Part shown: positions 5,133-59,603 of the stretch, piece after piece
Position numbering within the stretch: the first letter of the stretch is position 1
How the letters are laid out: each line of letters opens with the position of its first letter
Source: Streptosporangium becharense
GTDB lineage: Bacteria > Actinomycetota > Actinomycetes > Streptosporangiales > Streptosporangiaceae
Assembly (NCBI RefSeq): GCF_014204985.1
Contig: NZ_JACHMP010000001.1
Span: forward strand, 2,170,001-2,234,000
DNA length: 64,000 bases
Reading direction: 5' to 3'
Notes under the pieces: model-generated
The model's input: only the letters and a program-made list of their open reading frames with translations
What the model was told of the DNA's origin: nothing
The model's database searches: none
Translations under genes and position numbers: made by a program

Positions 5133-5388
5133 AATTGCTCGTGGCCATGTGGAGTATATCTGACCTGCGATAATGCCTAAAATGGTGCAAATGTTCTAGA
5201 GAAAGCGAGCGCTTGGCCGAACCTCTTCCGGAGAGCGCTTCGGCGAATCCCGCCAGAGATCGACGGAATTTCCCCGGGACCGTCCGCCCCCTCTCCCGCA
5301 GGCCCGGCGGGCGGGCCCCAGAGCACCACAGACGGGCCCCGTGACCCCGACGGGCGGGCCCGCGGCCGAGGCCCGGCTCCGGGCGGGG
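5133..5388. other. Intergenic region with one KstR2-like palindrome
   Basis: I see no convincing gene here. The stretch next to 5132 is less GC-rich and probably holds the promoter of the membrane-protein gene. The 5281-5370 part is extremely GC-rich with repeated GGGCCC and GACGGGC elements that could fold as a terminator for the minus-strand gene ending at 5389. Confidence 0.5.
5204..5217. promoter_or_regulatory. KstR2-like operator (8 of 10 fixed bases)
   Basis: The sequence is AGCGAGCGCTTGGC. Against AnCAAGnnCTTGnT it differs at the fourth and the last position. It lies upstream of the minus-strand membrane-protein gene. No catabolic gene is adjacent, so this is one of the less certain sites. 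Confidence 0.5.
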
Positions 5389-5847
5389 TCAGCCGCCGAG
5401 GAGGACCTCCCAGGGGTGGCGGCGGGCGGTCCGGCGGGTGGTGTCGAGAGCCTCGTCGAGGCGGCGCAGCCCCGGCCTGCCCCGGAAACGCTCGCGGCTC
5501 ACCGGGTCGACCGAGCGCAGGACGAACAGCACGCCCATGACGTCGAGGGTGGCGGTCCCGGCGGTGACGGGACCGGCGGGAACGACCGACGACCCGGGAC
5601 AGGCGGAGTCGGGCACGTGCGCGGTCAGGACCGCGGCGATCTCCGCCGCCCGGGGCCCGTCGCGCCACCGGATGTGCCAGCTGTGGTCCGTGCCGCGCCG
5701 CCAGGTCAGGTCGTGGCAGGACTCCATGAGCTCGGACTCGCCGGCGAGTGCGGCCATCACCCGCCCGAACGCCTCGTAGCGGCGCCCGCAGGACGGCTGG
5801 CCGTCGTCCGGCGGACCGAGGCGGCCTGCCCGGTGCGGTCCCCTCAT
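5389..5847 (-). CDS. Hypothetical protein, 152 residues
   Basis: The reading frame is open up to 6000, but ATG 5847 is preferred because the region above it is low in coding character and contains the promoter zone of the divergent gene. No signal peptide, membrane segment or known motif is recognised. Two soluble blocks are visible: WRRGTDHSWHIRWRDGPRAAE and DVMGVLFVLRSVDPVSRERF. The ribosome binding site is weak. It is probably a single-gene unit, divergent from the LLM oxidoreductase operon. Confidence 0.5.
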   Translation of the reverse strand: MRGPHRAGRLGPPDDGQPSCGRRYEAFGRVMAALAGESELMESCHDLTWRRGTDHSWHIRWRDGPRAAEIAAVLTAHVPDSACPGSSVVPAGPVTAGTATLDVMGVLFVLRSVDPVSRERFRGRPGLRRLDEALDTTRRTARRHPWEVLLGG

Positions 5848-5985
5848 GTCTGGGAGCGTGCCATCCTTCGGGCGCCGCGCACCCGCTTTTCGCCGCTTCT
5901 CCGCCCCTGAACTCACGAGAACCAACTGTGAGCCGCCGGACTTGTCCCCGCAAGCCCTGGTTCGGTACCGGCGCGGACGGTCGGC

Positions 5986-6014
5986 TTGTTGCCGCCCCAC
6001 CCGGCTGGTAATCT
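5986..6014 (+). promoter_or_regulatory. Candidate promoter of the LLM/PaaK-like/FadD3-like operon
   Basis: TTGTTG at 5986-5991 and TAATCT at 6009-6014 are separated by 17 bases. The KstR2-like operator at 6020-6033 starts just downstream, at about the expected transcription start, where a bound repressor would block initiation. Confidence 0.4.
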
Positions 6015-6019
6015 CGCCA

Positions 6020-6033
6020 AGCGAGCGCTTGGT
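6020..6033. promoter_or_regulatory. KstR2-like operator (9 of 10 fixed bases)
   Basis: The sequence AGCGAGCGCTTGGT is the core of the longer near-perfect palindrome CCAAGCGAGCGCTTGG (6018-6033 region). It differs from AnCAAGnnCTTGnT at one base. It lies 47 bases before the LLM oxidoreductase start. Confidence 0.8.
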
Positions 6034-6080: not shown

Positions 6081-7148
6081 ATGGCGTCCCTACGGATCAG
6101 CCTGGGATACGAGCTGGAGGTCCGCGGCCGATCCCGCGAGGTCGAACAGCGGGCGTTCCGCAACGTGATCGACCAGGTGGTCCTCGGCGACCGGCTGGGC
6201 TTCGACACCGCCTGGTTCGTCGAGCACCACTTCACCCGGGGCTTCTCCCACTCCTCCGCCCCCGACCTGGTGCTCGCCGCCCTCTCCCAGCGCACCGAGC
6301 GGATCCGCCTCGGCCTGGGCGTGGTGCTGCTGCCCTTCCAGTCGCCCGTCCGCACGGCCGAGCGCGTCGCCACCCTCGACGTCGTCTCGGGCGGCCGGGT
6401 GGAGTTCGGCACCGGCCGGGGCGCCTCCCCGCTGGAGTACCAGGCGTTCCGGCGGCCCTTCGAGAGGTCGCGGCAGATCTGGGAGGACTCCCTGGAGGCC
6501 ACCCTGGCCATCTGGAACGCCGACGGTGAGCCGGTCAGCCGCTCCAACGAGTACTTCGAGATCCCCGGCGTCGCGGTCTACCCCCGGCCGGTCCAGGTGC
6601 CGCACCCGCCCGTGTGGGTGGCCTCCACCTCGCTGGAGGGCTACCTCGCCGCCGCCAGGCACGGTCACAACCTGCTCGGCATGACGATGCTCAAGGGCAT
6701 CGACGACGTCGCCGAGGACATCGCCGGCTACCGGCGGTGCCTGGCCGACAACGGCTTCGACCCGGACAGCCGCCGGGTCGCGCTGATGATCCCGTGGTTC
6801 GTCGCACCCAGCCGGGAACAGGCCTTCGAGATCGCCGCCGACCCGGTCCTGTGGTACATCCGGCGCCAGGTCAACCTGGTCACCCCGCCCGGCTACTACG
6901 ACGCCCGGCACGCCACCCACAAGGTCCTGGGCCAGCTCGCCGCCGGGATGCCTCCCGAGGAGGCCATGGCCGTCCTGCGCGAGCACCACATGGTGGTGAT
7001 CGACGACGTGGAGGGCTCACGCAAGGCCGCGGCCCGTGTCGCCGAGGCGGGGGCCACGGACCTGATCCTCCAGGCGCAGGTGGGCGGGCTGGCGCACGAG
7101 CACGTCTGCGAGTCGATGAGACTGTTCATGACGGGAGTGGCCGGTTGA
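6081..7148 (+). CDS. LLM-class flavin-dependent oxidoreductase
   Basis: A 355-residue protein of the bacterial luciferase-like family (TIM barrel using FMN or F420). Family features are the early WFVEHHF (residues about 45-51), RIRLGLGVVLLPFQSP after it, the DVVSGGRVEFGTGRG loop, and YPRPVQVPHPPVWVAS in the middle. The substrate is not evident. GGAGG lies 5 bases before the ATG. It is the first gene of an operon: its TGA overlaps the TTG of the PaaK-like gene, followed closely by the FadD3-like ligase. An upstream KstR2-like operator suggests induction by a CoA-linked catabolic intermediate. Cofactor identity (F420 or FMN) cannot be told from sequence alone. Confidence 0.88.
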   Translation: MASLRISLGYELEVRGRSREVEQRAFRNVIDQVVLGDRLGFDTAWFVEHHFTRGFSHSSAPDLVLAALSQRTERIRLGLGVVLLPFQSPVRTAERVATLDVVSGGRVEFGTGRGASPLEYQAFRRPFERSRQIWEDSLEATLAIWNADGEPVSRSNEYFEIPGVAVYPRPVQVPHPPVWVASTSLEGYLAAARHGHNLLGMTMLKGIDDVAEDIAGYRRCLADNGFDPDSRRVALMIPWFVAPSREQAFEIAADPVLWYIRRQVNLVTPPGYYDARHATHKVLGQLAAGMPPEEAMAVLREHHMVVIDDVEGSRKAAARVAEAGATDLILQAQVGGLAHEHVCESMRLFMTGVAG

Positions 7149-8254
7149 CCCCCTCCCCGCCCTCCCCGGGGCCGGAACGGGGCGGGTGGCCGTCGGCCTG
7201 GCTGACCAGGGACGACCTCGCCGGCGCGGGCCGCGCCGCGACCGGCCTGCTGCTGGTCTCCCCCGACTGCGGAAGCGTCGTCCCCGAGGGCGACCCGGCG
7301 GAGCCGGTGGCCGCCTGCGCCGCCGCGCTGCGGGCGGCGGGCGTGGACGGGCGCGACCGGGTGGTGGCGGCCCTGTCCGGCGACGGCGAGCTGGCCGGGC
7401 CCCGGTGGGCACGGGCCGCGGCCGAGGTGGCCCAGGCGGGCGCCTCGCTCGGCCCGCGGGGCCGGCTCAGGCTCCACCACGCGCTGGAGACGCTGGGGGC
7501 GACCACACTGGTGATCACGCCGACCGGCGCCATGGACCTGCTGGCCCGCCTGCACCTGGAGTTCCTGCTCGACCCGCTGGACCTGGGCCTGCGGCACATC
7601 GTCCTGACCGGTGAGATCGCCTCGCGGCGGACGATGCCGCACCTGGCGGCGGAGTTCGCGGCGAAGGTGACCGAGGTGTACTCCTCACCGTTCACCGGGG
7701 TCCCGCTGGGCTGGCGGTCCGCCGAGTCGGCGCCGCTCACCCTTCTCGCCCCCGGCTCGGTGCGGCTGGCCCCGCTCGGGAAGGACGAGCTGCTCCTCCC
7801 GCCGTACGCCGCGGGCCCGGCCGAGATCGTCGTGGCCGGCGCGGAGCCGGGGACGGCGGTGCGGACCGGGCAGGTGGTCCGGACCCCGGGCGGCGACGCG
7901 ATCCCGGCCCCCGGGCACACCGTCGGCGACCACGTGCTGGTGCGCGGGGTGTGGCTGTCGCTGGCGCGGATCCAGCGAGCGCTGGAGCGGGTGGACGGCG
8001 TCTCCGGATGGGAGCTGGGCCTCTCCCGGCGGGGCACTCTCGACGCGGCGACCCTGACGGTGACGTTCAACCGGAGGAGCCTCGTCGGCAACCCCATGTG
8101 GAGGTCGCGCATCGAGCAGTCGCTCAGGGCCGTCACCCCGGTGACGATCACCGTGGAGATCTCCGAGCAGGTCTCGGAGACCGGCTTCCCAGGCGTGGTG
8201 AACGACGCGCGCGGCCACCACCTGGGCAGGGACCGCACCGCTACCGCCCGCTGA
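7145..8254 (+). CDS. PaaK-like adenylate-forming domain protein, short and divergent
   Basis: Start TTG 7145 overlaps the previous stop (TTGA), giving 369 residues. The middle part (LRHIVLTGEIASRR, then VTEVYSSPF) and the C-terminal part (VGDHVLVRGVWLSLARIQRALE, residues near 260-285) align in order with phenylacetate-CoA ligase-type enzymes. The protein is about 60 residues shorter than PaaK. I cannot find the usual SSGTTG-type phosphate loop; the region before LHHALETLGATT is replaced by an Ala/Gly-rich segment. It may be a non-catalytic or altered ligase. Its tight coupling to the LLM and FadD3-like genes suggests a role in the same pathway. Confidence 0.7.
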   Translation: MTPSPPSPGPERGGWPSAWLTRDDLAGAGRAATGLLLVSPDCGSVVPEGDPAEPVAACAAALRAAGVDGRDRVVAALSGDGELAGPRWARAAAEVAQAGASLGPRGRLRLHHALETLGATTLVITPTGAMDLLARLHLEFLLDPLDLGLRHIVLTGEIASRRTMPHLAAEFAAKVTEVYSSPFTGVPLGWRSAESAPLTLLAPGSVRLAPLGKDELLLPPYAAGPAEIVVAGAEPGTAVRTGQVVRTPGGDAIPAPGHTVGDHVLVRGVWLSLARIQRALERVDGVSGWELGLSRRGTLDAATLTVTFNRRSLVGNPMWRSRIEQSLRAVTPVTITVEISEQVSETGFPGVVNDARGHHLGRDRTATAR

Positions 8255-8274
8255 CCCCCGAAAGGCGCGACGGC

Positions 8275-9876
8275 ATGGAAGTACCGGACTGGCGGACCGT
8301 TCCCCGGATGCTGCGGGACCTGGCCGACGGGCATCCCTGCGACATCGTGGTGACCGAGGGCACCGAGGGTCCGGTACGGCTGAGCCTCGCCGGCCTGCGC
8401 TCCCGGGCCGGTGACGTCGCCCGGGGCCTGATCGCGCTGGGCGTGCGGCCAGGCGACCGGGTGGCGGTCTGGGGGCCGAACGACGTCGACTGGGTGGTCG
8501 GCGCGTTCGGCGTCTGGGACGCCGGGGCGGTGCTCGTACCGCTGTCGTCCCGGTTCAAGGGCGTCGAGGCCGCCGAGGTGCTCCGCTCGACCGGGACGAG
8601 CGTGCTGATCACCGGTCACGGCCACGACGGCGTGGTCCTGGCCGGGCTGCTGGGCGGGGCGGCGGGCGGACCGGCCCCGGGGCGGCCCTTCGCCGGCCTG
8701 CCGGACCTGCGGCACGTGATCGTGCCGCAGGGGGTGGACCACCCCGGCGCGTCGCGGCCCGCACAGCTGCTGGCGGCCTCCTCGCGGGTCGGTCGCGCCG
8801 AGGCCGAGGAGCGCGCGCTGGCCGTGCGGCCGGACGACCTGTGCGAGATCATCTCGACCTCGGGCACGACCGGGACGCCCAAGGGCGTGATGCTGGAGCA
8901 CTCGCCCGTCCTGCGCGCGTACTGGGACTGGGCGGAGATCGTCACGCTCGGCCCCGGCGACCGCTACCCGGTGATCGCGCCGTTCGCGCACGGCTTCGGC
9001 CTCAACGCCGGCCTGCTGGCCTCGGTGATGCGCCGGGCCACGATGACGCCGGTCCGGGTCTTCGATGCCGAGTCCCTGGCCGGCCTGATCCGCGACCGGG
9101 GGGTCACGGTCCTGGCCGGCCCCCCGACGCTGTTCCACCGGCTGCTGGAGGAGGCGGAGCTCGACGGGCACGCGCTGCGCGTGGCGATCTGCGGCGCCGC
9201 CTCCGTGCCTCCGGAGCTGGTCCGCAGGCTGACGGATCGGCTCGGACTGGAGCGGGTGATCAACGCGTACGGGCTGATGGAGGGCACGGTCGTCTCCATG
9301 ACCAGGGCCGGCGACCCCGTCGAGGTGATCGCCTCCAGCGCCGGCCGCCCGGTGCCCGGAATGGAGGTCAGGATCGTCGGCGAGGACGGCCGCGACCTGC
9401 CCGCCGGAGAGCGCGGGGAGATCCTGGTCCGCGGGTACGGCGTCATGCGCGGCTACTGGGGCGAGCCCGGCAGGACGGCCGAGGTGATCAGGGACGGCTG
9501 GCTGCACACCGGCGACATCGGCACCCTCGGGCCGCGCGGTGACCTGTCGATCGTGGACCGCAAGAAGGAGCTGTTCATCACCGGCGGGTTCAACGTCTCC
9601 CCCGCCGAGGTGGAGGGGCTGCTGCTGCGCGAGGGCTCGCTGGCCCAGGTCGCGGTGGTCGGGGTGCCGGACCCGAGGCTGGGCGAGGTCGGCTGGGCGT
9701 TCGTGGTGCCGCGGCGGGGCACCGCCGCCGACCCGGACGCGATCATCGCCTGGGCCCGCGCCACCATGTCGAACTACAAGGTGCCCCGGCGGGTGATCGT
9801 GGTGGACGCGCTGCCCGTCAACGCCAACGGGAAGATCGACAAACGTGCCCTGCGTGCCCGGACGCCTGCCGGGTAG
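8275..9876 (+). CDS. fadD3: FadD3-like acyl-CoA synthetase (AMP-forming)
   Basis: A 533-residue acyl-CoA ligase with all core motifs: TSGTTGTPKGVM phosphate loop, NAYGLMEG, WLHTGDIG, DRKKELFITGGFNV, and a C-terminal NANGKIDKRAL catalytic lysine motif. Several stretches (IALGVRPGDRVAVW, TVLAGPPTLFHRLL, VPDPRLGEVGWAFVV) closely follow mycobacterial FadD3, which activates the ring-C/D steroid product HIP and is KstR2-controlled. The symbol rests on remembered similarity, so substrate is an inference. It is the third gene after a KstR2-like operator, which fits. ATG 8275 is preceded by GAAAGG. It could alternatively act on another cyclic or branched acid. Confidence 0.75.
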   Translation: MEVPDWRTVPRMLRDLADGHPCDIVVTEGTEGPVRLSLAGLRSRAGDVARGLIALGVRPGDRVAVWGPNDVDWVVGAFGVWDAGAVLVPLSSRFKGVEAAEVLRSTGTSVLITGHGHDGVVLAGLLGGAAGGPAPGRPFAGLPDLRHVIVPQGVDHPGASRPAQLLAASSRVGRAEAEERALAVRPDDLCEIISTSGTTGTPKGVMLEHSPVLRAYWDWAEIVTLGPGDRYPVIAPFAHGFGLNAGLLASVMRRATMTPVRVFDAESLAGLIRDRGVTVLAGPPTLFHRLLEEAELDGHALRVAICGAASVPPELVRRLTDRLGLERVINAYGLMEGTVVSMTRAGDPVEVIASSAGRPVPGMEVRIVGEDGRDLPAGERGEILVRGYGVMRGYWGEPGRTAEVIRDGWLHTGDIGTLGPRGDLSIVDRKKELFITGGFNVSPAEVEGLLLREGSLAQVAVVGVPDPRLGEVGWAFVVPRRGTAADPDAIIAWARATMSNYKVPRRVIVVDALPVNANGKIDKRALRARTPAG

Positions 9877-9963
9877 GGGTCGGCCGGGCGGGGATAGGGG
9901 CTGGCCGGGTGGGGCGCCGTGATGAAGAATCACCTTCTTGACAGCCAGCGCCGGGGAGGCGAC

Positions 9964-11274
9964 GTGTCACTGCGAGTCGCGGTTGTGGGGTCGGGGCCTG
10001 CCGGGCTGTACACGGCCGAGGCGCTGATGAAGCAGGCCGCCGAGCCCGTCACGGTGGACGTGCTGGAGCGGCTGCCGACCCCGTACGGGCTGGTGCGCTA
10101 CGGCGTGGCCCCCGACCACACCTCGATCAAGTCGATAGCGGGCTATCTGCGCGGTGTGCTGGAGCTGCCGGCCGTGCGCTTCCTCGGCGGCGTCGAGTTC
10201 GGCAGGCACGTCGACGCCGCGGACCTGCTGGCCTGCTACGACGCCGTGGTCTACTGCACCGGCGCGATGGTGGACCGGCGGATGGACATCCCCGGCGAGG
10301 ACCTGCCGGGCAGCGTCGCCGCCACCGACTTCGTCAACTGGTACTGCGGCCACCCCGACGTGCCCGCCGACCGTTTCGTCCTCGACAGCCCCGAGGTCGC
10401 GGTGGTCGGCGTGGGCAACGTGGCGGTCGACGTGGTGCGCGTCCTCGCCAAGACCGCCGACGAGCTGCGCTCCACGGACGTGCCCGAGGAGGTGCTGACC
10501 CGGCTGGCGGCCAGCCGGGTCAGGCGCATCCACATGATCGGCCGCCGGGGCCCGGAGCACGCCAAGTTCACCCTGAAGGAGCTGCGCGAGCTGGGCGAGC
10601 TGCCCAACGCGGACGTGCGCGTGCGGCCCGAGGAGTGCGCGGCGGACGTCACGGCGGCGTCGCGGCAGGTGCGCGGGAACGTGGAGGTGCTGCGCAGCTG
10701 GGCCGCGCGAGGGGTGACGGACCGGCCCCGCCGGGTGGAGATGCGGTTCTGGATGCGGCCGGTGGAGATCCTCGGTGACCGCCGGGTGGAGGCGATCCGG
10801 CTCGAACGCACCCGCCTGGTGGACGGCCGGGTCACGGGCACCGGCGAGTTCGAGACCCTGCCGGTCGGCATGGTGCTGCGCTCGGTCGGCTACCGGAGCG
10901 TTCCCCTGCCCGGCGTCCCCTTCTCCACCTCGACCATGACGGTGCCGAACGAGGCGGGCCGGGTGCGCGACCGCGAGTACGTGGCGGGCTGGCTGAAACG
11001 CGGCCCGACCGGTGTGATCGGCACCAACAAGTCCGACGCCGCCGAGACGGTCCGCACCCTGCTGGCCGACCTCGCCGGTCGTGAACCGGTGCGCCACGCG
11101 GACCTGGACGACATCCTCGCCGCGCGGGGCGTCACCCCCGTCACCTACGAGCAGTGGCTGTCCATCGAGGCCGCCGAGGCGGAGCTGGCCGGGTCCCTCG
11201 GCCGCGGCGAACGCGTGAAACTGCTCGGCCTGGCCGCCATGCTCACCGCCTGCGACCGGCGTCCGAGCCGCTGA
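9964..11274 (+). CDS. fprA: Ferredoxin/adrenodoxin-type NADP reductase, FprA family
   Basis: A 436-residue FAD enzyme passing electrons from NADPH to ferredoxin. GSGPAGLY (residues 9-16) is the FAD-binding loop; VGVGNVAVDVVRVLA is the NADP site; GRRGPEHAKFTLKEL and KRGPTGVIGTNKSDA are hallmark segments of FprA/adrenodoxin reductase. GTG 9964 is preferred: GGGGAGG is placed 5 bases before it, while the ATGs 45 bases upstream have no site. It follows the FadD3-like gene on the same strand after 87 bases. A link to cytochrome P450 or other ferredoxin-dependent steps of the catabolic regulon is plausible but not shown. Confidence 0.9.
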   Translation: MSLRVAVVGSGPAGLYTAEALMKQAAEPVTVDVLERLPTPYGLVRYGVAPDHTSIKSIAGYLRGVLELPAVRFLGGVEFGRHVDAADLLACYDAVVYCTGAMVDRRMDIPGEDLPGSVAATDFVNWYCGHPDVPADRFVLDSPEVAVVGVGNVAVDVVRVLAKTADELRSTDVPEEVLTRLAASRVRRIHMIGRRGPEHAKFTLKELRELGELPNADVRVRPEECAADVTAASRQVRGNVEVLRSWAARGVTDRPRRVEMRFWMRPVEILGDRRVEAIRLERTRLVDGRVTGTGEFETLPVGMVLRSVGYRSVPLPGVPFSTSTMTVPNEAGRVRDREYVAGWLKRGPTGVIGTNKSDAAETVRTLLADLAGREPVRHADLDDILAARGVTPVTYEQWLSIEAAEAELAGSLGRGERVKLLGLAAMLTACDRRPSR

Positions 11275-15324: not shown

Positions 15325-15729
15325 CTACCCGGTGCCGCCGCCGTCGTCCGCCGGGGCCCAGTCGACCAGCGTGACCCCTTCGCCGACGGTGGTGAGGCAC
15401 GCGCGGACGGGCTCGCCGGCGACCGGCTGCCGCGCGCCGCGCCAGTTGCCGTACATGACGCACTCCGCAGCGTCCGTCAGACGCACCATGACGACCACGT
15501 AGGGCTCGGTGGCACCGGGCAGGAAGGGCTGGTGGCTGACGATCCAGCTCTCGACGTGCCCGGCCGGCGCGACCGGCCACCAGCGCCACCCGCGGGTCCG
15601 GCAGCGGTGGCAGTACGCGCGGGCGGGGAAGCGCAGCGTGCCGCAGGAGTCGCACCGCTGGACGACGAACTCCCCCGCGGCCGTCCGCTCCCACCACTGC
15701 TCGGAGTCCCGGTCGGTGAGCGGACGCAC
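15325..15729 (-). CDS. DUF35 / Zn-ribbon plus OB-fold protein, partner of thiolase-fold enzyme
   Basis: A 134-residue protein with a rubredoxin-like zinc ribbon (Cys26, Cys29, Cys40, Cys43) followed by an OB-fold (about residues 50-125, including HVESWIVSHQPFLPG). DUF35 proteins form complexes with thiolase-like enzymes; in steroid side-chain degradation the ChsH2 DUF35 domain partners Ltp2 as a retro-aldolase, and in other systems DUF35 partners thiolases or HMG-CoA synthase. Its GTG start lies 3 bases past the stop of the thiolase-fold gene, with GGAGGGG inside that gene's end, so the two are coupled. Confidence 0.85.
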   Translation of the reverse strand: MRPLTDRDSEQWWERTAAGEFVVQRCDSCGTLRFPARAYCHRCRTRGWRWWPVAPAGHVESWIVSHQPFLPGATEPYVVVMVRLTDAAECVMYGNWRGARQPVAGEPVRACLTTVGEGVTLVDWAPADDGGGTG

Positions 15730-15732
15730 CTC

Positions 15733-16890
15733 TCACCCCCTCCGCATGATCAGGGCCGAGGTGGCGGGCAGGATGTAGCCGGGCTGGGCGGTGGACAGGG
15801 CCACCTCCGCACCGGCCACCTGCCTTTCACCGGCGTCGCCGCGCAGCTGGGAGACCGCCTCGGCGATGTGGTTGACGCCGTGCACGTATCCCTCGGAGAG
15901 GAACCCGCCGTGCGTGTTCACCGGCAGCTCGCCCCCGATCTCCAGCGCTCCCGAGGCGGCGTACGGCCCGCCCTCGCCCTTGGCGCAGAAGCCGTAGTCC
16001 TCCAGTTGCACGATCACCGAGTAGGTGAAGCAGTCGTAGATCTCGGCCACGTCGATCCCGGCCGGGCCGACGCCCGCCTGCCGGTACAGGCGCGGGGCCA
16101 GCTCGGCCGCACCGCTCACCGTGGTGTCCGCCCGCCCGCCGGACAGGAAGGAGACGCCGCCACCCCAGGCCGCCGCGGAGATCAGCACCGGCGGCCGGCG
16201 CAGGTCCGCGGCCCGCTCGGCGGTGGTGACGACGAGCGCGCACGCTCCGTCGGTCTCCAGGCAGCAGTCGAGGAGCCGGAACGGCTCGGCGATCCACCGG
16301 CTCGCCAGGTAGTCGTCCAGGGTGATCGGGATGCGCATGAGCGCGCGCGGGTTGCGGACCGCGTTGGCCCGCTGGAGCACGGCCAGATGCCCGAAGTGCT
16401 CGGGGCGGGTGCCGTACCTCGTCATGTGAGCACGGGCGAGCATCGCGTACTGCTGCGGCGGGGCGACATAGCCGTACGGCGCCTGGTACTGCGCCTCGGG
16501 ACCGGCGGGTGCCGCCCGGCCGGTCCCGCCCATCCGGAACTCCGAGCGCGCGTTGATCGCCCGGTAGCAGACGACCGTATCGGCCATCCCCGCCGCGACC
16601 GCGAGCGCGGCCTGCCCCACGACCGAGTGGGAGACGCTGCCTCCGCCGAACTGGTCGAGGTACCAGGCCGGCTCGCGCAGGCCGAGTGCGGGGCCGACCA
16701 GGGAGGGGGCCGCGGAGTCGCCGACCCGGTGGGTGGCGATGCCGTCCACGTCGTCGGCCGTCAACCCGGCGTCCTCCAGGGCGGCCAGCACCGCCTCGCA
16801 GGCCAGGGTGAGGGTGCTGACGCCGGAGTTCCTGGAGAAACGGGTGTACCCGACCCCCGCGACGGCCGTACGGTCCCGGAACCCGCGCAC
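15733..16890 (-). CDS. Thiolase-fold (SCP2/Ltp-like) protein, candidate acyl-CoA aldolase
   Basis: A 385-residue member of the non-specific lipid-transfer/thiolase family. GTG 16890 is chosen because GGGAGG lies 6 bases before it; an upstream TTG (16914) would overlap the operator. The family C-terminal signature NTHGGFLSEGYVHGVNHIAEA is present. At the position of the thiolase nucleophile Cys the protein has a Ser-rich GGGSVSHSVVG, so classical thiolysis is unlikely and a retro-aldol role, as in Ltp2, is possible. It is coupled to the DUF35 gene and preceded by a KstR2-like operator. The closest paralogue in the window is at 40384. Confidence 0.85.
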   Translation of the reverse strand: MRGFRDRTAVAGVGYTRFSRNSGVSTLTLACEAVLAALEDAGLTADDVDGIATHRVGDSAAPSLVGPALGLREPAWYLDQFGGGSVSHSVVGQAALAVAAGMADTVVCYRAINARSEFRMGGTGRAAPAGPEAQYQAPYGYVAPPQQYAMLARAHMTRYGTRPEHFGHLAVLQRANAVRNPRALMRIPITLDDYLASRWIAEPFRLLDCCLETDGACALVVTTAERAADLRRPPVLISAAAWGGGVSFLSGGRADTTVSGAAELAPRLYRQAGVGPAGIDVAEIYDCFTYSVIVQLEDYGFCAKGEGGPYAASGALEIGGELPVNTHGGFLSEGYVHGVNHIAEAVSQLRGDAGERQVAGAEVALSTAQPGYILPATSALIMRRG

Positions 16891-16909: not shown

Positions 16910-16923
16910 AGCAAGCGCTTGGC
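16910..16923. promoter_or_regulatory. KstR2-like operator (9 of 10 fixed bases)
   Basis: AGCAAGCGCTTGGC differs from AnCAAGnnCTTGnT only in the last base. It lies 20 bases upstream of the thiolase-fold start and just ahead of its ribosome binding site. Confidence 0.8.
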
Positions 16924-17094: not shown

Positions 17095-17108
17095 AGCAAG
17101 CGCTTGGT
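17095..17108. promoter_or_regulatory. KstR2-like operator, full match to the published motif
   Basis: AGCAAGCGCTTGGT matches AnCAAGnnCTTGnT at all 10 fixed positions and sits inside the 16-base near-palindrome CCAAGCAAGCGCTTGG. A -10-like TATAAC (17111-17116) follows directly, so a bound repressor would cover the promoter of the flavin reductase. Confidence 0.85.
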
Positions 17109-34009: not shown

Positions 34010-34039
34010 TGAACAAGCGATTGCGCAAGGGCCCATAAT
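34010..34039 (+). promoter_or_regulatory. Leaderless kstR2 promoter
   Basis: TGAACA (34010-34015) and CATAAT (34034-34039) are separated by 18 bases. The GTG start at 34046 lies 6 bases after the -10, so transcription should begin at or within a base of the start codon. There is no spaced ribosome binding site other than GGAGG touching the start. Confidence 0.5.
34012..34025. promoter_or_regulatory. Autoregulatory KstR2-like operator (8 of 10 fixed bases)
   Basis: AACAAGCGATTGCG keeps the left half CAAG intact and has two substitutions in the right half. It lies across the -35/spacer of the kstR2 promoter. Weaker autoregulatory sites are common for repressors. Confidence 0.55.
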
Positions 34040-50502: not shown

Positions 50503-50516
50503 AGCGAGCGCTTGGT
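50503..50516. promoter_or_regulatory. KstR2-like operator (9 of 10 fixed bases)
   Basis: AGCGAGCGCTTGGT within CCAAGCGAGCGCTTGG, identical in its 16-base core to the site at 6020. It lies 69 bases before the LLM gene at 50585. Confidence 0.8.
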
Positions 50517-50584: not shown

Positions 50585-51643
50585 ATGAAGTTCTCGACCT
50601 TCCACCTCTTCCACCGGTTCGACGGCCAGAGCTTCAAGGACGTCTACGACCACCACCTGCGGCTGATCGAACTCGCCGAGGAGCTGGGGTTCCACGGCGT
50701 CCGGCTGGCCGAGCACCACTTCCGCGACTACGGCGTGGTCCCCAACCTGTTCACGATGCTCGCGGCCATGGCGGCGCGCACCGACCGGATCCGGCTGGGA
50801 ACCGGCGTCGTGGTGCTGCCGCTGCACAACCCGATCCACGTCGCCGAGGAGGCGGCGATGGTCGACGTTCTCTCCGGCGGGCGGCTGGAGCTGGGCATCG
50901 GACGCGGCTACCAGAGCTTCGAGTTCCAGGGCTTCGGCGTCGAGCTGGCCGAGGCCCGTGACCGGTTCGACGAGGCGCTGGAGGTCGTCCTCGGGCTGTG
51001 GGGCGCCGGGGCCTTCCGGCACGAGGGCAAGTTCTACCGGACCGGGACCGGGGTGGAGCTCGTCCCCCGGCCGCTCCAGTCCCCGTTCCCGCCGATCCAC
51101 GTGGCGGCCGTGTCGCCGGAGACCGTCACCATGTACGCCGGACGCGGCCTGCCGATCCTGGCCGACCCGGCCGCGCCGTTCCACAAGGTGGTCGGGGCCG
51201 CGCGGACCTGGCGGGAGACCGCCGAGCGCACCGGGCACGACGTGACCGGTGCCGAGCTGGTGGTCGCGCGCAGCGTCTACGTGGCCCCGACCCTGGAACG
51301 GGCCCGCGAGGACCAGGCCGCCTTCGAGGCGGGTTTCGACCGGGGCCGGATCTTCAACCGGGAGAGCGCACCGATCGACCCGCGGACCGGCCGGGCGGCG
51401 CAGGGGTTCGAGTACTACCAGGACCGCTACCTCAAGGGTGGTTCGCTCTCCAACGACTTCCGCTGGGAGCAGTTGGAGGTCATCGGCGACCCCGGGCGGG
51501 TGATCGGCCAGATCCGGCTGCTCCGGGACGCCGGGTTCGCCAACCTGCTCTGCGACTTCGGCAGCACCCGGCCGATGCCGGCGGCGGAGCTGGAGAAGGT
51601 GATGCGGTTCTTCGCCGCCGAGGTCATGCCGGCCTTCCGGTGA
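50585..51643 (+). CDS. LLM-class flavin-dependent oxidoreductase, second copy
   Basis: A 352-residue luciferase-like protein starting at ATG 50585 with AGGGGA upstream. Family features: LAEHHFRDYGVVPNL, RIRLGTGVVVLPLHNP, DVLSGGRLELGIGRGY and RPLQSPFPPIHVAA. It is only moderately similar to the copy at 6081, so they may act on different intermediates. It is followed at 70 bases by an acyl-CoA ligase and preceded by a KstR2-like operator. Confidence 0.88.
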   Translation: MKFSTFHLFHRFDGQSFKDVYDHHLRLIELAEELGFHGVRLAEHHFRDYGVVPNLFTMLAAMAARTDRIRLGTGVVVLPLHNPIHVAEEAAMVDVLSGGRLELGIGRGYQSFEFQGFGVELAEARDRFDEALEVVLGLWGAGAFRHEGKFYRTGTGVELVPRPLQSPFPPIHVAAVSPETVTMYAGRGLPILADPAAPFHKVVGAARTWRETAERTGHDVTGAELVVARSVYVAPTLERAREDQAAFEAGFDRGRIFNRESAPIDPRTGRAAQGFEYYQDRYLKGGSLSNDFRWEQLEVIGDPGRVIGQIRLLRDAGFANLLCDFGSTRPMPAAELEKVMRFFAAEVMPAFR

Positions 51644-51713: not shown

Positions 51714-53270
51714 ATGATCCACCGGTTGACCCTGTCCGACGTCCTCGCCGAGCACGCCCGCAGCCGCCCCCTGGTGACGGCCGTGGTGGACGGCGAGGTG
51801 CGGCTCACCTACCCCGAGCTCGACGCGCGGGTCACCCGCCTGGCCGACGCGCTGGCCGCGCGGGGCGTCGCCGCCGGAGACCGGGTGCTGTGGCTGGGAC
51901 GCAACAGCCACGCGGTACTGGAGCTGCTGCTGGCCGCCTCCCGGCTCGGCGCGGTCTTCTGCCCGGCCAACTGGCGGCAGTCGACCGGCGAGCTGGCCTT
52001 CGTCCTGGACGACCTGGCCCCGAAGGCCGTCGTCTGGGAGGAGTCGGAGGCCGCCGCGCCGCTCCGCGGGGACGACTGGATCCTCATGGGGGCCGGTTAT
52101 GAGACGTTCCTGGCCGGCGGGTCCGGCGGGTCCGGTGGAAGCGCGGACGGCGACCCCGGCGGCACCAGCGACCCCGGCGGCGGCACCGGCGACGACACCG
52201 GTGACGACACCGGTGACGACACGGCGCCGGTTCTCGCGCTCTACACCGCCGCCTTCGACGGCCGTCCCGCCGCCGCCCTGCTCAGCAGCGCCGCCCTGGT
52301 CGCGCACAGCGTGTCGCTGCTGGTGGTCCGCCAGATGGAGCCGGGCTTCACCTTCCTCAACAGCGGCCCGCTGTTCCACGTGGGCACAATGATGTTCTGC
52401 CTGGCCACCCTGCAGATCGGCGGGACGAACGTCTTCACCCCCGCGTTCGACGCCGAGGAGGTCTGCCGGCTGGTCGAGGCGGAGAAGGTCACCCAGGCGT
52501 TCCTGTTCGGCCGGATGATCGACGAGGTGGCCGAGGCGAACGGGGACGGCCGGTACGACCTGTCCTCGCTCCGCTTCGTCTCCCACTCGGCCGCGTGGGA
52601 CGCGATGACGACGGTGGACGACTCCCCCTGGTGCCGGTCGAAGATGGGCGGCTACGGGCAGACCGAGGTGGGCGGCATGCTGACCTTCCTCGGGCTGGCG
52701 CCCGGTGCCGCCGGTCCCGCCGGGCGGCCGTCCCCGCTGGTCCAGGTGCGGATCCTGGACCCCGACGGCCGCGAGGTGCCCGCCGGGGAGGTGGGCGAGA
52801 TCTGCGCACGCGGCAGGTCGCTCTTCTCCGGCTACCTCAACCGGCCGGAGCTGACCGCGGCCAGGATCCGGGACGGTTGGCACCACACCGGTGACCTCGG
52901 CCGCCGGGAGGCCGACGGCACGATCACGTTCGTCGGCCCGCGGCTCCGCATGATCAAGTCGGGCAACGAGAACGTCTACCCGGCCGAGGTCGAGCGCGTG
53001 CTGAAGACCCACCCCGCCGTCGCGGACGCGGCCGTGATCGGGGTGCCCGACGACCGGTGGCACCAGGTGGTCAAGGCCGTCGTGGTCCTCGCGGACGATG
53101 CCGGGCCGGTCACCGCCGAGGACGTCGCCGAGCACGTCCGGGCCAGGATCGCCTCCTACAAGAGACCCCGCCACGTCGCCTTCGTCGAGGCCATCCCGAA
53201 GAAGGGCTTCACCCCCGACTACGACGCCCTCGACGCCGCCCACGGTGGCGGCGGCTACCCCGGCGGCTGA
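51714..53270 (+). CDS. Acyl-CoA synthetase (AMP-forming) with altered phosphate loop
   Basis: A 518-residue member of the adenylate-forming family: WLGRNSHAVLELLLAASRLGAV, GYGQTEVGGML, WHHTGDLGR and KSGNENVYPAEVE are typical. The usual TSGTTGxPKG loop is replaced by TAAFDGRPAAALL, a known variant in some actinobacterial ligases, and the C-terminal lysine motif is KKGFTPDYDAL. A low-complexity insertion (about residues 140-170, with GDDT repeats) precedes the loop. It is the second gene behind the operator at 50503. Activity needs proof because of the loop. Confidence 0.8.
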   Translation: MIHRLTLSDVLAEHARSRPLVTAVVDGEVRLTYPELDARVTRLADALAARGVAAGDRVLWLGRNSHAVLELLLAASRLGAVFCPANWRQSTGELAFVLDDLAPKAVVWEESEAAAPLRGDDWILMGAGYETFLAGGSGGSGGSADGDPGGTSDPGGGTGDDTGDDTGDDTAPVLALYTAAFDGRPAAALLSSAALVAHSVSLLVVRQMEPGFTFLNSGPLFHVGTMMFCLATLQIGGTNVFTPAFDAEEVCRLVEAEKVTQAFLFGRMIDEVAEANGDGRYDLSSLRFVSHSAAWDAMTTVDDSPWCRSKMGGYGQTEVGGMLTFLGLAPGAAGPAGRPSPLVQVRILDPDGREVPAGEVGEICARGRSLFSGYLNRPELTAARIRDGWHHTGDLGRREADGTITFVGPRLRMIKSGNENVYPAEVERVLKTHPAVADAAVIGVPDDRWHQVVKAVVVLADDAGPVTAEDVAEHVRARIASYKRPRHVAFVEAIPKKGFTPDYDALDAAHGGGGYPGG

Positions 53271-55255: not shown

Positions 55256-56251
55256 TCAGAGGATCGCCAGGGGCGTGATCGGGCTGCCCGTCCCGCCCTC
55301 GATCCGCAGCGGCGCCGCGACGAAGACGAAGTCCCCGCCGGGACGGCCGGCGCAGGCCGCGCCGAGCTCCTCCAGTGAGAGCATCTCGGCCAGATGGATG
55401 CCGTGCCGCCAGAGCAGGATCATGTGCAGGTCGTCCTCGATGCTCTCGCCGGCGAGCTGGCGGGCGTCGAGGCCGCCGACGGCGGCGTTGTCGGCGGCGA
55501 CCACGGCGACGTCGCGGGCGGCGAGCCACCGGCCGCCGTCGGCGGACAGCCCCGGCTGGCCCGCCCAGTACGCCTCGGGGGAGCTCTCCCAGACCAGGGG
55601 CCAGCCGGTGCGGACCACGGCCACGTCACCGGGGCGTACGTCGTCGTGGATCTCCGCCAGCAGGTCGCCGGAGACGCGGAAGTCCACCGGGAGGTGGGCG
55701 AGGCCGAGGTGGCGGGGGACGTCGAAGAGCACCCCCCGCGCCACGACCCCACCGACGTTCTCGATACCGCAGCGGGCGGCGCCGTACGACCTGACCCGGG
55801 CGGCCGGGTGGCCGTTGTAGAGCTCCTCCCCCGACCACATGTGGCACAGCGCGTCCATGTGGGTGGTGGTCCCGTGGTGGGTGACGACGAGTGCGTCGTC
55901 GGCCACGCGCAGGCCGGCTCCGATCGGGCGGGCACCGGCCGCGTAGTCGCCGCCGTCGACCGACATGAAGTGCTGCGGCAGTGGCCGGCCCCGCAGGTGG
56001 GGAACCGTCGTGGGAGCGGCCGAAGAGGTCGCACCCCGGATCGGCATGGCCAGACTGATCACCCGGCCGGTGACCGCGGAGCCCAGGGCGGCCAGGACGG
56101 CGGCGGGGGTCAGCAGGTTCAGGGTGCCGCGCTGGTCCTGCGGACCGAAGCGGCCCCAGTTGCCGGGCTCGGCCCTGTCGCCGGGGTCGGTGTCATTGCC
56201 GCATTCGGTACCGTTGCCGGATTCGGCGCTGTCGCCGGGTTCGGTGCTCAC
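55256..56251 (-). CDS. Cyclase-family (kynurenine formamidase-like) metal-dependent hydrolase
   Basis: A 331-residue protein. The family metal motif is HHGTTTHMDALCH (about residues 112-124), where His/Asp/His ligands lie; other segments are ALVVTHHG, VRPGDVAVVRTGWPLVWE and FVFVAAPLRIEGGTGSP, the family's characteristic ending. Known members open cyclic amides or lactone-like rings (for example N-formylkynurenine hydrolysis). Start GTG 56251 follows the SDR stop by 14 bases, so SDR and cyclase form one operon under the operator at 57204. The first about 30 residues are low complexity. Confidence 0.82.
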   Translation of the reverse strand: MSTEPGDSAESGNGTECGNDTDPGDRAEPGNWGRFGPQDQRGTLNLLTPAAVLAALGSAVTGRVISLAMPIRGATSSAAPTTVPHLRGRPLPQHFMSVDGGDYAAGARPIGAGLRVADDALVVTHHGTTTHMDALCHMWSGEELYNGHPAARVRSYGAARCGIENVGGVVARGVLFDVPRHLGLAHLPVDFRVSGDLLAEIHDDVRPGDVAVVRTGWPLVWESSPEAYWAGQPGLSADGGRWLAARDVAVVAADNAAVGGLDARQLAGESIEDDLHMILLWRHGIHLAEMLSLEELGAACAGRPGGDFVFVAAPLRIEGGTGSPITPLAIL

Positions 56252-56265: not shown

Positions 56266-57168
56266 TCAGTGCATCGTGACGCCGCCGCTGACCGACAGCG
56301 TCTGGCCCGTGACGTAGGCGGCCCGGTCGGTGCACAGGTAGGCGACCAGCCCCGCGACGTCCTCGGGGGTGCCCAGGCGGCGCAGCGGGACGTCCCTGAC
56401 GATCCTGCCGACCAGCCCCGGCCTCTCGGCGTCGACGCGGCGGAGCATCGGGGTGTCGGTGGGGCCGGGGCAGACCACGTTCGAGGTGACGCCGCCCCGC
56501 GCGGCCTCCCTGGCGAGGCTCTTGGCCAGGCCGAACAGCCCGGCCTTGGTCGCGGCGTACGCCCCCTCGCCGCCGGAGCCGGCCCGTGCCCCGTCGGAGG
56601 AGACGAAGACCAGCCGGCCCCAGCCCCGTTCGGTCATCCCCGGCAGCAGCAGCCGGGTCAGGAGCATCGGGCCGCGCAGGTTGACCCGCCACATCAGCTC
56701 CCAGCCCGCCGGGTCGCTCGTGGCGAACGGCTCCACGATCGAGATCCCGGCGTTGTTGACGAGGATGTCCACCGGCCCGGTCCGGTCGGGGACCCGCTCC
56801 ACGGAGCCGGGATCGGCCAGATCCACGCACAGGGCGACGGCGGGCGCCCGCGGTCCCGTACGGGACCCGGACCGCGGCCCGGGCGGGACGGACGGACCCG
56901 GTGGGACAGGCGGCTCGGGCGGACGAGACGGGTGGGGAGGGCCGGGCGGGACGGACGGACCCGGAGGGCGAGGAGGTCGAGGCGGGCCGGCCGGGCCCTT
57001 GGAGGTGCCGTTGATCTCGTCGGCGACGGCGACGGCGCCGTCCTCGTCCACGTCGGCCACGACGACCCGGGCCCCGAGCGCGGCGAGGTCACGGCAGACG
57101 GCCGCGCCGATCGCCCCCGCGCCGCCGGTCACCACCGCGACGCGGCCGTCCAGTCGCAGGCCGTCCAT
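56266..57168 (-). CDS. Short-chain dehydrogenase/reductase with proline-rich insertion
   Basis: A 300-residue SDR starting at ATG 57168 (GGAGG upstream). The NAD(P) loop VVTGGAGAIGAAV, NNAG and the catalytic YAATK (with Ser in SSDGARAG) are present. Between NGTSKGPAG and VALCVDLADP it has about 45 residues of Pro/Gly/Arg-rich sequence (repeated PPGP, PPRPP), not part of the SDR fold. It is coupled to the cyclase gene. IpdF of the KstR2 regulon is also an SDR; this one could be an analogue but similarity to it is not established. Confidence 0.85.
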   Translation of the reverse strand: MDGLRLDGRVAVVTGGAGAIGAAVCRDLAALGARVVVADVDEDGAVAVADEINGTSKGPAGPPRPPRPPGPSVPPGPPHPSRPPEPPVPPGPSVPPGPRSGSRTGPRAPAVALCVDLADPGSVERVPDRTGPVDILVNNAGISIVEPFATSDPAGWELMWRVNLRGPMLLTRLLLPGMTERGWGRLVFVSSDGARAGSGGEGAYAATKAGLFGLAKSLAREAARGGVTSNVVCPGPTDTPMLRRVDAERPGLVGRIVRDVPLRRLGTPEDVAGLVAYLCTDRAAYVTGQTLSVSGGVTMH

Positions 57169-57203
57169 GTGTCCACGCCTCCACCGCACCCGCGCTCCAT
57201 CTA

Positions 57204-57217
57204 GTCGAGCGCTTGCT
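57204..57217. promoter_or_regulatory. KstR2-like operator (8 of 10 fixed bases)
   Basis: Read on the minus strand it is AGCAAGCGCTCGAC, with an intact left half (CAAG) and two substitutions to the right. It lies 36 bases upstream of the SDR start; CTAGAT on the minus strand just beyond it could be the -10 element. Confidence 0.6.
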
Positions 57218-57363
57218 TGGTCATCGCTCGGAGCCTAACACGCGGCCGGGCCTTCTCCCGGCCCGACAACCGCGCGCTCTACGACAAAATTCATCGATCG
57301 TGACAACCAGCCCCATGGGTGAGACCGTCGAACAAGTTGACGGCACTCTGAGGGGGATCTGCA

Positions 57364-59580
57364 GTGGTTCCGGGATACCGCGAGGTTCGAGAGCTCGGCG
57401 TCGGCGGGGGCGGACGCGTGGTGCTGGCCACGTACACCGCCACCGGAGCCTACGTGGCCATCAAGTACCTCAACGCGGCCCTGAAGGACGATCACCGCTT
57501 CCTGACGCGCTTCCGCGAGGAAGCGCGGATCATGGTGGAGTTGAGCGACCCGAACGTGGTGCAGCTCTACGAGTACTACGAGGACGTGCTCGACGCCGCG
57601 ATCGTGATGGAGCTGGTCGACGGAGTCTCGCTGAGGAAGATCCTGACCCGGCACGGCGGCACGAGCCCCGAGGCGGCGCTCACCGTACTCAAGGGCTCGC
57701 TGCTGGGCCTGGCGTCCGTCCACGCCGCAGGGGTCGTCCACCGCGACTACAAGCCGGAGAACGTGCTCGTCCAGGCCGACGGCGCCAGCAAGCTGGCCGA
57801 CTTCGGCATCGCCACGCACGTCGGGGAGACGGGCGTGGCCGCGGGCACCCCGCCCTACATGGCGCCGGAACAGTGGGACGGAGCCCCGGCGAGTGCCGCC
57901 ACGGACGTCTACGCGGCCACGTGCGTGTTCTTCGAGTGCCTCACCGGGCACCGGCCGTACCCGGCCGGCCACGACGCCGTGCTGATGCACCGGCACCGCG
58001 ACGCCCCGATCCCGGTGCACGAGGTGCCGAGCTCGGTCCGCGCGCTGGTCGCGCGGGGCATGGCCAAGCACCCGGCGGACCGGCCGGTGAGCGCGCGGGC
58101 GTTCCTCGACGAGGTGGAGACGGCGGCGCTGGCCGCCTACGGGTCGGAGTGGGAACAGCGCGGACGTCGGCATCTGGCCGAGCTCGCCACACTGCTGGCG
58201 CTGGCGTTCCCGCTGGCCAGGCCGGCCCCGCGGGCGAGCACCTCGATCGCCGGCACCGTACTCGGCCGGGTGGGGCGGATGCGCCGCCTCCGGCCGGGCC
58301 CGCGGACGCTGGCCGGGGTCGGCGTGGTCACCGTCGCGGTGACCGTCGCTCTCATCGCGGCCAACCGCCCGTCCGACCGGCTCTCCGCGGGCACCGTCTT
58401 CACTCCCCCGCCCGGTCCCGCGGTGGCCGGGGAGAGGCCCGCGCCGCGTCGGCGGAGCCCGGCGCCACCGGTGCCCGACGCCCCGGGCGTGGCCGGTCCG
58501 GCCACCGCGCCGGAGCCGGCGCCGACCGCCGCGGCCACCGGACGCCCCGTACCGCCCCCACGGGCCGGCGGGGCCGGCCGGGTCACCCCGCCACCGCCGG
58601 TCCCGACCCGCACGCGGACGGCCACCGCCGCACCCACACCGGTGCGGCCCCCCACCCAGGCCCCCACCCAGGCCCCCACCCCGGCTCCCACGTCGCCCCC
58701 CACCCGCGTGCCGACCCCCACTCCCACGGGCACGCCGTCCCCGGAGCCGGTGCACGCGGTCGGCGACCTGGCGGTCACCGGGATCGACGCGGACGGCGCC
58801 ACGATCGGACTGCGCGCCTCCACCCCGGCGGACGTCGTGCTGACCGTCGCCTTCGCCGAGGGGGACGACCCGGACCGGCTCCGGGAGGCGTCCTCGCGCG
58901 CCGTCACGCTCGCCGGATCGACGGCCTACTCCCGGACGGTCCCCTACGCCTTCTCCACCCCCGGCTGCGGGCGGACGCTCTACCGCAGGGTGACCGTCTC
59001 CACCTCCCCCCGGGCGGAGAACGGCACGCGCACCCGGACCGAGACGGTCCGGGGCGAGCCGTGCGCGCCGCCCTCGGTCTCGATCGGTGCCTTCGACGGC
59101 GCCGTGGTGGGCTTCCGGGTGCGGACGGCGGACACCTCGCCGGTGACCGTCCGGCTCGGCTTCACGCAGCGGGTCGCCGGCGGCCGGGACACTCCGGCGG
59201 GCACCGTCCGGGAGCTTCCGCTCTCCGGCGCCGTCGACTACCGGCGCCGGATCGCCGGGGAGTTCGCCCCGCTGCCCCGCTGTGGGGAGTACGCCGTCCG
59301 GACGGTGACGATCACCACCGTGCCGGCGGGCGGTACGGTCACCCGCGAGGCGCGGATCGACCTGCCCGACTGCTCGTCCGGGCCCTCCTCCGGGCCGCCG
59401 TCGGAACCGCCGTCAGAGCCACCGTCAGAGCCGCCGTCGGTGCCCTCGCCGAATTCTTCACCGTCCCGGGTGCCCGTCCCGGTCGGGGAGCCCGCCGCGA
59501 CCCCGCGGCCCTCCCCCGCGCGGGAGCCCGCGGGCTTCGTGGACGTTCCCGGCGAAATGGGCAAGGACCGCGCCTTGTAA
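57364..59580 (+). CDS. Membrane Ser/Thr protein kinase (PknB-like) with paired ectodomain repeats
   Basis: A 738-residue protein starting at GTG 57364 with AGGGGGA upstream. Kinase domain about residues 1-260: Gly-rich loop GVGGGG (11-16), Lys33, catalytic HRDYKPEN (126-133, Tyr where Leu is usual), DFG near 147. A single membrane helix lies near residues 316-336 (VGVVTVAVTVALIAA). Then a Pro/Thr-rich linker (about 345-460) and an extracytoplasmic region of two similar repeats (about 465-575 and 580-680), each ending in a Cys pair. No PASTA domains. The last 40 residues are Pro/Ser-rich. Confidence 0.88.
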   Translation: MVPGYREVRELGVGGGGRVVLATYTATGAYVAIKYLNAALKDDHRFLTRFREEARIMVELSDPNVVQLYEYYEDVLDAAIVMELVDGVSLRKILTRHGGTSPEAALTVLKGSLLGLASVHAAGVVHRDYKPENVLVQADGASKLADFGIATHVGETGVAAGTPPYMAPEQWDGAPASAATDVYAATCVFFECLTGHRPYPAGHDAVLMHRHRDAPIPVHEVPSSVRALVARGMAKHPADRPVSARAFLDEVETAALAAYGSEWEQRGRRHLAELATLLALAFPLARPAPRASTSIAGTVLGRVGRMRRLRPGPRTLAGVGVVTVAVTVALIAANRPSDRLSAGTVFTPPPGPAVAGERPAPRRRSPAPPVPDAPGVAGPATAPEPAPTAAATGRPVPPPRAGGAGRVTPPPPVPTRTRTATAAPTPVRPPTQAPTQAPTPAPTSPPTRVPTPTPTGTPSPEPVHAVGDLAVTGIDADGATIGLRASTPADVVLTVAFAEGDDPDRLREASSRAVTLAGSTAYSRTVPYAFSTPGCGRTLYRRVTVSTSPRAENGTRTRTETVRGEPCAPPSVSIGAFDGAVVGFRVRTADTSPVTVRLGFTQRVAGGRDTPAGTVRELPLSGAVDYRRRIAGEFAPLPRCGEYAVRTVTITTVPAGGTVTREARIDLPDCSSGPSSGPPSEPPSEPPSEPPSVPSPNSSPSRVPVPVGEPAATPRPSPAREPAGFVDVPGEMGKDRAL

Positions 59581-59603
59581 GCAAACCAAGCGTGCGCTAG
59601 CTT
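59575..59603 (+). promoter_or_regulatory. Promoter of the DUF35/ligase/ADP-synthetase operon
   Basis: TTGTAA (59575-59580, overlapping the kinase stop) and TAGCTT (59598-59603) are separated by 17 bases. The ATG at 59612 is 8 bases after the -10, so the leader is absent or very short; no ribosome binding site is visible. Confidence 0.5.
59589..59602. promoter_or_regulatory. Divergent KstR2-like operator (7 of 10 fixed bases)
   Basis: AGCGTGCGCTAGCT lies within the longer inverted repeat CCAAGC-N8-GCTTGG (59586-59605), the outer bases of the other operators but with a changed centre. It overlaps the -10 element of the promoter. Confidence 0.45.

Follow-up and report, generated by a model that had tools for sequence, protein, structure and literature searches.

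A KstR2-type operator set around luciferase-like monooxygenase genes in Streptosporangium becharense

The window analysed here is a 64 kb stretch of the 7.82 Mb genome of Streptosporangium becharense (NCBI RefSeq assembly GCF_014204985.1, contig NZ_JACHMP010000001.1, positions 2,170,001 to 2,234,000), in which an earlier note had described nine palindromic sites resembling the operator of the mycobacterial regulator KstR2. This nine-site observation was confirmed. The TetR gene at position 34046 of the window (positions are window coordinates unless given in Mb) probably encodes a KstR2-type repressor of a lineage-specific, enlarged ring C/D (HIP) regulon, which includes two luciferase-like monooxygenases (LLMs), LLM-A and LLM-50585. 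The type of operator, its conservation in relatives, the homology of the TetR protein and the linkage of the island to ipdA carry this reading.

Operator sites in the window and in relatives

The nine 14-mers were judged against the ten fixed bases of AnCAAGnnCTTGnT. All of them lie where they had been placed and, in order from 5204 to 59589, they keep 8, 9, 9, 10, 8, 9, 9, 8 and 7 of the ten bases, as claimed (7 to 10). Matches to CCAAGCRAGCGCTTGG with up to three mismatches number 12 in the window, whereas 100 shuffles average 1.79 and never exceed 6. With CAAG-N6-CTTG and one mismatch the excess was marginal (14 matches against 8.4 expected; 2 of 100 shuffles reach 14). Loose patterns were not enriched over the genome as a whole, a scan with two mismatches giving 73 matches against 129 for the backwards pattern and a second pattern scan 450 against 518. 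Since two-mismatch patterns do not rise above their reversed controls genome-wide, only strong matches are informative, and these are concentrated in the window: all four exact copies of CAAGCRAGCGCTTG in the genome fall inside it, and so do 8 of the 14 found when a single mismatch is allowed, two of which overlap.

A matrix independent of the window sites was built from seven distinct mycobacterial and rhodococcal KstR2 sites of the nine tabulated in the part of PMC3068626 used here. It gave nine window matches scoring at least 12, where 0.25 are expected, and five scoring at least 18, compared with none in 60 first-order Markov simulations. Its eight best matches (17093, 50501, 6018, 41591, 16908, 57202, 5202 and 59587) are eight of the nine listed sites; the ninth match of at least 12, at 22979, is outside the list. 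The lowest-scoring listed site, at 34010 before the TetR gene, ranks 11th (9.8) and is nonetheless conserved in relatives. The 14-mer at 17095, AGCAAGCGCTTGGT, is identical to that in the Rv3557c/Rv3558 (kstR2 promoter) gel-shift probe which, in the same part of that paper, is bound by KstR2 (PMC3068626). The regulon extends beyond the window to about 75.3 kb in window coordinates (2,245,284) and includes two divergent promoters a short way beyond the window.

Conservation was followed in regions of 18 relatives (1.09 Mb in all), partly selected for carrying the motif. There were 94 sites scoring at least 15, compared with 2 when the sequence was reversed, and none lay deeper than 40 bp within a called gene. 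A site precedes 12 of 12 LLM-A orthologues and 7 of 18 TetR orthologues in this set (Table 1 gives the other members), as against 53 of 832 genes outside the list of ten members, divergent neighbours counted. In 22 of 80 relatives the TetR gene and a FadA6-type gene point away from each other, with a site between them. Of 120 genomes of the family, many of them drafts, 35 contain the exact 16-mer CAAGCRAGCGCTTGGT, and 34 of these have a TetR protein at least 50% identical to that of the window; none of the 36 that lack a KstR2-like TetR at 1e-28 contains it, and the backward control had one match overall.

Seven of the nine sites are read as operators, among them 16910 and 17095, which share one divergent promoter region. 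The other two are doubtful operators of the AnCAAGnnCTTGnT type. At the place of 5204, six relatives have a gene for an IpdE2-like acyl-CoA dehydrogenase (with a site scoring at least 15 in five of the six), which is missing in the window; the site is probably a relic of that promoter, and may still serve gene 4476-5132. Conservation of 59589 fails: among nine orthologues in relatives, no more than one has a site of at least 15, and that one is shared with the short-chain dehydrogenase (SDR) site. The scattering of sites over more than 50 kb in the window was rejected as a general rule, since about 15 to 22 kb hold the main operons in the stretches fetched from G021, G076 and G110.

The TetR regulators and the ipd locus

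The TetR protein had been called KstR2-like and its best solved relatives are indeed KstR2-type chains: PDB 2ibd (1.8e-53, 45% identity), KstR2 4w1u (7.7e-49, 42% identity) and 4w97 (9e-49), the next chain reaching only 1.2e-21. The 2ibd chain is from Rhodococcus RHA1. The stretch GILSGSLYHHF is identical in both KstR2 chains and R-D-T-x-W is also kept; these are presumably the recognition helix and the HIP-CoA contacts, respectively. A 47-row tree places the window-type TetRs, the KstR2 of mycobacteria and rhodococci, and those TetRs of relatives that are linked to ipd genes in separate sister clades, with their branching order unsettled (86/88). The independent matrix, the 14-bp operator match, the closest solved TetR relatives and the footprinting in relatives together support, by sequence comparison, operator and regulator of KstR2 type.

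Absence of ipdAB and fadE genes, reported for the window, is correct there and does not extend to the genome. A canonical ipd locus lies at about 0.48-0.49 Mb, 1.7 Mb away, beside a second KstR2-like TetR gene (488,228; 42% identity to the 34046 protein), so that a genome without the ipd block was rejected. The locus encodes a FadA6-type thiolase, an IpdF-type SDR, FadE30- and IpdE2-type acyl-CoA dehydrogenases (the IpdE2 match being under its model cut-off), a FabK/IpdC-like protein, IpdA (PDB 6co6, 1.3e-101) and an EchA20-type hydratase. Both sites of the second TetR at this locus fit the published matrix, with scores of 18.3 and 22.4.

IpdA is linked to the island across the family: it was found in all 31 genomes with LLM-A and in 25 of the 89 others (p = 1e-13, kinship ignored). 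Thirteen of the 31 have a single KstR2-like TetR (1e-28), and in ten of these ipdA is on the same contig, 5 to 33 kb away, the other three being drafts with ipdA on another contig. Nine of the ten were scanned (G089 was left out), and a site of at least 10 was found near ipdA in eight and of at least 13 in seven, G003 having none. In G003, G100 and G103 the ipdA, ipdB and ipdC-like genes are all within the island. A FadE30-type gene follows the flavin reductase gene in seven relatives, as does an IpdF-type gene in three of them.

The remaining 18 genomes have two KstR2-like TetRs, the second being on the ipdA contig in 16. A site of at least 10 within 1.5 kb of ipdA was found in two of nine such genomes scanned (S. 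becharense itself, 15.7, and G052, 12.1) and in none of G044, G064, G087, G091, G110, G112 and G115. The IpdA of S. becharense (G000:C1 468001-508000) shares 87% and 85% identity with copies from other genera (G067 and G016) but only 64 to 68% with those of G071, which belongs to the same genus, and of G095, G044 and G058. From these sequences, its ipdA locus is likely to be a replacement or a horizontal arrival with its own type of TetR.

Ring A/B enzymes and alternative explanations

Of the 120 genomes, the 56 with IpdA were used to compare the presence of LLM-A with that of established ring A/B enzymes. HsaC and KstD were searched with one query each (from G032), and 45% identity was the chosen line. 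An HsaC-like protein was found in 2 of 31 genomes with LLM-A versus 24 of 25 without it (p = 1.8e-12, kinship ignored), and a KstD-like protein in 7 of 31 versus 24 of 25. HsaD exceeded its cut-off in none of 31 versus 10 of 25, or 6 of 31 versus 24 of 25 with weaker matches (1e-60) included. At least two genera (g16 and g37) hold genomes of both types. In S. becharense itself there was no match for HsaD (1e-60), HsaC (1e-30) or KstD (1e-70), the hallmark set of 9,10-seco steroid degraders; KshA and HsaA were not searched for. Among 394 genomes sampled from the class, IpdA was found in 106 and LLM-A in nine, all in the family of the window.

In genomes of the family that have IpdA, LLM-A thus tends to stand in for the established enzymes of rings A and B. 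It is conceivable, though we would not call it probable, that in this family the feeding of the IpdAB ring C/D pathway has passed from the aromatising 9,10-seco ring A/B pathway to a module of luciferase-type oxygenases controlled by a KstR2-type regulator, so that HIP-type CoA thioesters are reached from a polycyclic substrate class, or by a way of opening steroid rings, not recognised so far.

The alternatives to a KstR2-type HIP regulon under the 34046 protein overlap partly with it, and their probabilities are not meant to add up to one. Somewhat unlikely, although the strongest of them, is a separate non-steroid pathway (for example, for a hydrindane terpenoid) that shares an ancestral KstR2-like repressor and has an inducer other than HIP-CoA. 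Such a pathway would suit a genome in which HsaD, HsaC and KstD have no match at the thresholds used, and a group in which 29 of 31 LLM-A genomes are without an HsaC-like enzyme (45% identity). It sits badly with the presence of IpdA in every one of the LLM-A genomes, with ipdA lying within the island in ten genomes, and with a FadD3-like ligase in the LLM-A operon itself.

The second TetR, alone or together with that at 34046, might instead control the window sites, leaving the 34046 protein to act mainly on itself and its neighbour. The fit of its own sites to the same published matrix, its similar helix-turn-helix and the retention of 34046-type TetRs in relatives without LLM-A all agree with this. 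Even so, we consider it improbable: all 13 LLM-A genomes that have the window-type TetR alone still keep the operator before LLM-A, the ipdA locus in seven of the nine two-TetR genomes scanned has no window-motif site of at least 10 within 1.5 kb, and the gene for the 34046-type protein is itself preceded by a site in 61 of 80 relatives. An origin by chance, or through some overall sequence bias of a GC-rich genome, to which the behaviour of the loose patterns might point, was rejected as scarcely credible, given shuffles, Markov simulations, the published matrix and strong matches both enriched and conserved in relatives.

Several points nevertheless weigh against control of a HIP regulon by the 34046 protein. 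As the second TetR has a similar helix-turn-helix and its two sites fit the same matrix, it could bind some of the window sites. The candidate self-operator before the 34046 gene is weak in S. becharense, and the ligase, flavin reductase and thiolase of the island all fall short of the cut-offs of their models. Part of the footprinting comes from relatives picked for the motif; when five were chosen without the exact 16-mer (G016, G054, G023, G018 and G067), two had no site of at least 15. Neither of the two single-TetR drafts G001 and G071, with ipdA on another contig, has a site of at least 10 at the ipdA locus. Finally, 28 of the 72 family genomes with a window-type TetR lack both IpdA and LLM-A, and only two of these 28 contain the exact 16-mer CAAGCRAGCGCTTGGT, so the TetR must serve another purpose there.

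Genes of the island, proposed route and known systems

Table 1. Operator-like sites and genes of the island, in window coordinates; scores are those of the published KstR2 matrix
Feature	Position	Strand	Observations
Small gene	4476..5132	-	no Pfam family; hydrophobic by eye
Operator-like AGCGAGCGCTTGGC	5204..5217	.	score 12.7; faces gene 4476-5132
Operator AGCGAGCGCTTGGT before LLM-A operon	6020..6033	.	score 22.0; site at all 30 LLM-A loci scanned, that of the window among them
LLM-A, luciferase-like monooxygenase	6081..7148	+	PF00296 5.5e-54; PDB PuwE 2e-30 and luciferase-like matches
Conserved protein, second in LLM-A operon	7145..8254	+	369 aa
FadD3-like AMP-forming acyl-CoA ligase	8308..9876	+	best NCBIfam model FadD3 family, 521 bits, cut-off 657 not reached
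FAD/NAD(P)-binding oxidoreductase, possible operon end	9985..11274	+	PF07992 on 9919-11274
DUF35/ChsH2-like protein	15325..15729	-	PF12172, PF01796
Ltp2-type thiolase-fold aldolase or thiolase	15733..16890	-	PRK07855 392 bits, under 469 cut-off; PDB 6ok1 lipid-transfer protein 2.9e-88
Operator AGCAAGCGCTTGGC before thiolase	16910..16923	.	score 18.4; upstream site in 12 of 12 relatives with orthologue
Operator AGCAAGCGCTTGGT before flavin reductase	17095..17108	.	score 27.0; upstream site in 11 of 12 relatives
HsaB-like flavin reductase	17185..17835	+	sole NCBIfam match HsaB, 174 bits, under 230 cut-off; Pfam on 17173-17835
Weak candidate self-operator AACAAGCGATTGCG before repressor	34012..34025	.	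score 9.8; site of at least 14 before TetR in 61 of 80 relatives
KstR2-type TetR	34046..34732	+	PDB chains and tree (see text)
Ltp-type thiolase-fold protein	40384..41463	-	PRK07855 282 bits, under cut-off
Operator GGCAAGCGCTTGCT before Ltp-type gene	41593..41606	.	score 20.4; 8 of 13 relatives, 15 of 80 loci in larger set
Operator AGCGAGCGCTTGGT before second LLM operon	50503..50516	.	score 22.0; 13 of 13 relatives
LLM-50585, second luciferase-like monooxygenase	50585..51643	+	luciferase-like NCBIfam matches, all under cut-offs; PDB 7bip 4.5e-39
AMP-forming acyl-CoA ligase	51714..53270	+	PF00501
Cyclase-family hydrolase	55256..56251	-	PF04199 1e-15
SDR	56266..57168	-	best NCBIfam model BadH, under cut-off
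Operator GTCGAGCGCTTGCT before SDR operon	57204..57217	.	score 13.1; site at head of SDR gene pair in 5 relatives
Doubtful site AGCGTGCGCTAGCT before DUF35/ligase operon	59589..59602	.	score 12.7; conservation fails
DUF35/ChsH2-like protein	59612..59974	+	
AMP-forming acyl-CoA ligase	60021..61658	+	
Acyl-CoA synthetase, ADP-forming type	61655..63961	+	matches under cut-offs

With the 34046 protein as repressor of the HIP regulon, its dimer would occupy AnCRAGCGCTTGGT palindromes at 6020, 16910, 17095, 34012, 41593, 50503 and 57204 (5204 and 59589 being doubtful), and the two divergent promoters a short way beyond it. The dimer would be released by a pathway CoA thioester, for which HIP-CoA or a closely related product of the FadD3-like ligase (8308) is the probable candidate. 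The genes so controlled (two LLMs, HsaB-like reductase, ligases, Ltp2/DUF35 pair, cyclase-type hydrolase and SDR) may join or feed the IpdAB pathway. Ligases would form CoA thioesters, after which the two LLMs, supplied with reduced flavin by the HsaB-like reductase, might insert oxygen beside a ring ketone. The cyclase-family hydrolase and SDR would open and oxidise the product, and the Ltp2/DUF35 pair (nearest solved chain 6ok1) would cleave carbon-carbon bonds, leaving IpdAB and dehydrogenases to finish. The nearest solved chains of the two LLM proteins are PuwE, 7bip and bacterial luciferase types, and LLM-A had no NCBIfam match at 1e-60.

The second protein of the LLM-A operon (7145-8254) has no Pfam or NCBIfam family, and a PDB profile search was also empty. 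Its orthologue accompanies LLM-A in all 12 fetched relatives having it, and it is 49 to 74% identical in ten relatives (alignment A1). By eye, it may resemble a degenerate PaaK-type adenylating enzyme. The SDR has 300 aa compared with about 243 to 261 aa in its orthologues, owing to an apparent insert near the N-terminus, and no gene is called in the window for the product of about 200 aa encoded ahead of it in relatives. At 45744-48922 a response-regulator domain is fused to a pyridine-nucleotide-disulphide oxidoreductase, adjoining a cNMP-binding histidine-kinase-like protein.

Far from the island, at 1.847-1.862 Mb, operator matches scoring 20.3, 25.2 and 16.8 in the published matrix (L029:6782, L029:19273 and L030:1938) precede hydantoinase/acetone-carboxylase-like genes and an operon encoding PhyH, phosphotriesterase-like and P450 proteins. 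Operator-like sites at 2.684 Mb (L035:4075 and 5496; 15.1 and 15.9) lie beside FadD-like, lipid-transfer, weakly DUF35-like and EchA19-like genes, a set reminiscent of sterol side-chain degradation. At L027:10433-15628, a divergent promoter with an operator is followed by LLM genes, a HipA-like kinase gene and a DUF3037 gene in one apparent operon.

Steroid degraders have the HsaAB monooxygenase and the Ltp2-ChsH2 aldolase, with which the island may be compared. Its flavin reductase is HsaB-like and its thiolase Ltp2-like, whereas the oxygenase partner would be luciferase-like rather than HsaA.

As far as the KstR2 regulon of Mycobacterium and Rhodococcus is described in the part of PMC3068626 used here, the island shares with it the operator AnCAAGnnCTTGnT, one identical 14-mer, the TetR family and helix core, acyl-CoA catabolic genes and a self-operator. 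The regulon described there has 15 genes in one block with three promoter regions; here about nine promoters extend over 70 kb and ipdAB is elsewhere in the genome. Different members had also been claimed, and this is real and conserved in relatives: the island adds two LLM oxygenases, an HsaB-like reductase, ligases, an Ltp2/DUF35 pair and a cyclase. In Nocardioides simplex, predicted KstR2 sites are reported to precede 29 operons, dispersed, and there is more than one copy of ipdAB (PMC7807495, in part). Ring A/B genes are listed in that paper and the term LLM is absent from its main text, for which the word luciferase was not searched. Thermomonospora curvata is reported to grow on cholate and to have genes for cholate as well as a ring C/D cluster apart from these (PMC4810484, in part). 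No paper in the one open-access library searched, supplements aside, was found to join KstR2 with luciferase-like, nor luciferase-like monooxygenase with steroid and HIP-CoA.

IpdAB is known to act on the last two rings of steroids (PMC5380842, in part). In 29 of 31 LLM-A genomes ipdA goes with a luciferase-type oxygenase module in place of an HsaC-like enzyme. If this pattern is genuine, the presence of ipdAB would no longer be enough to identify a classical steroid degrader. Some soil actinomycetes would then have a putative oxidative route, and its regulator could serve as a biosensor.

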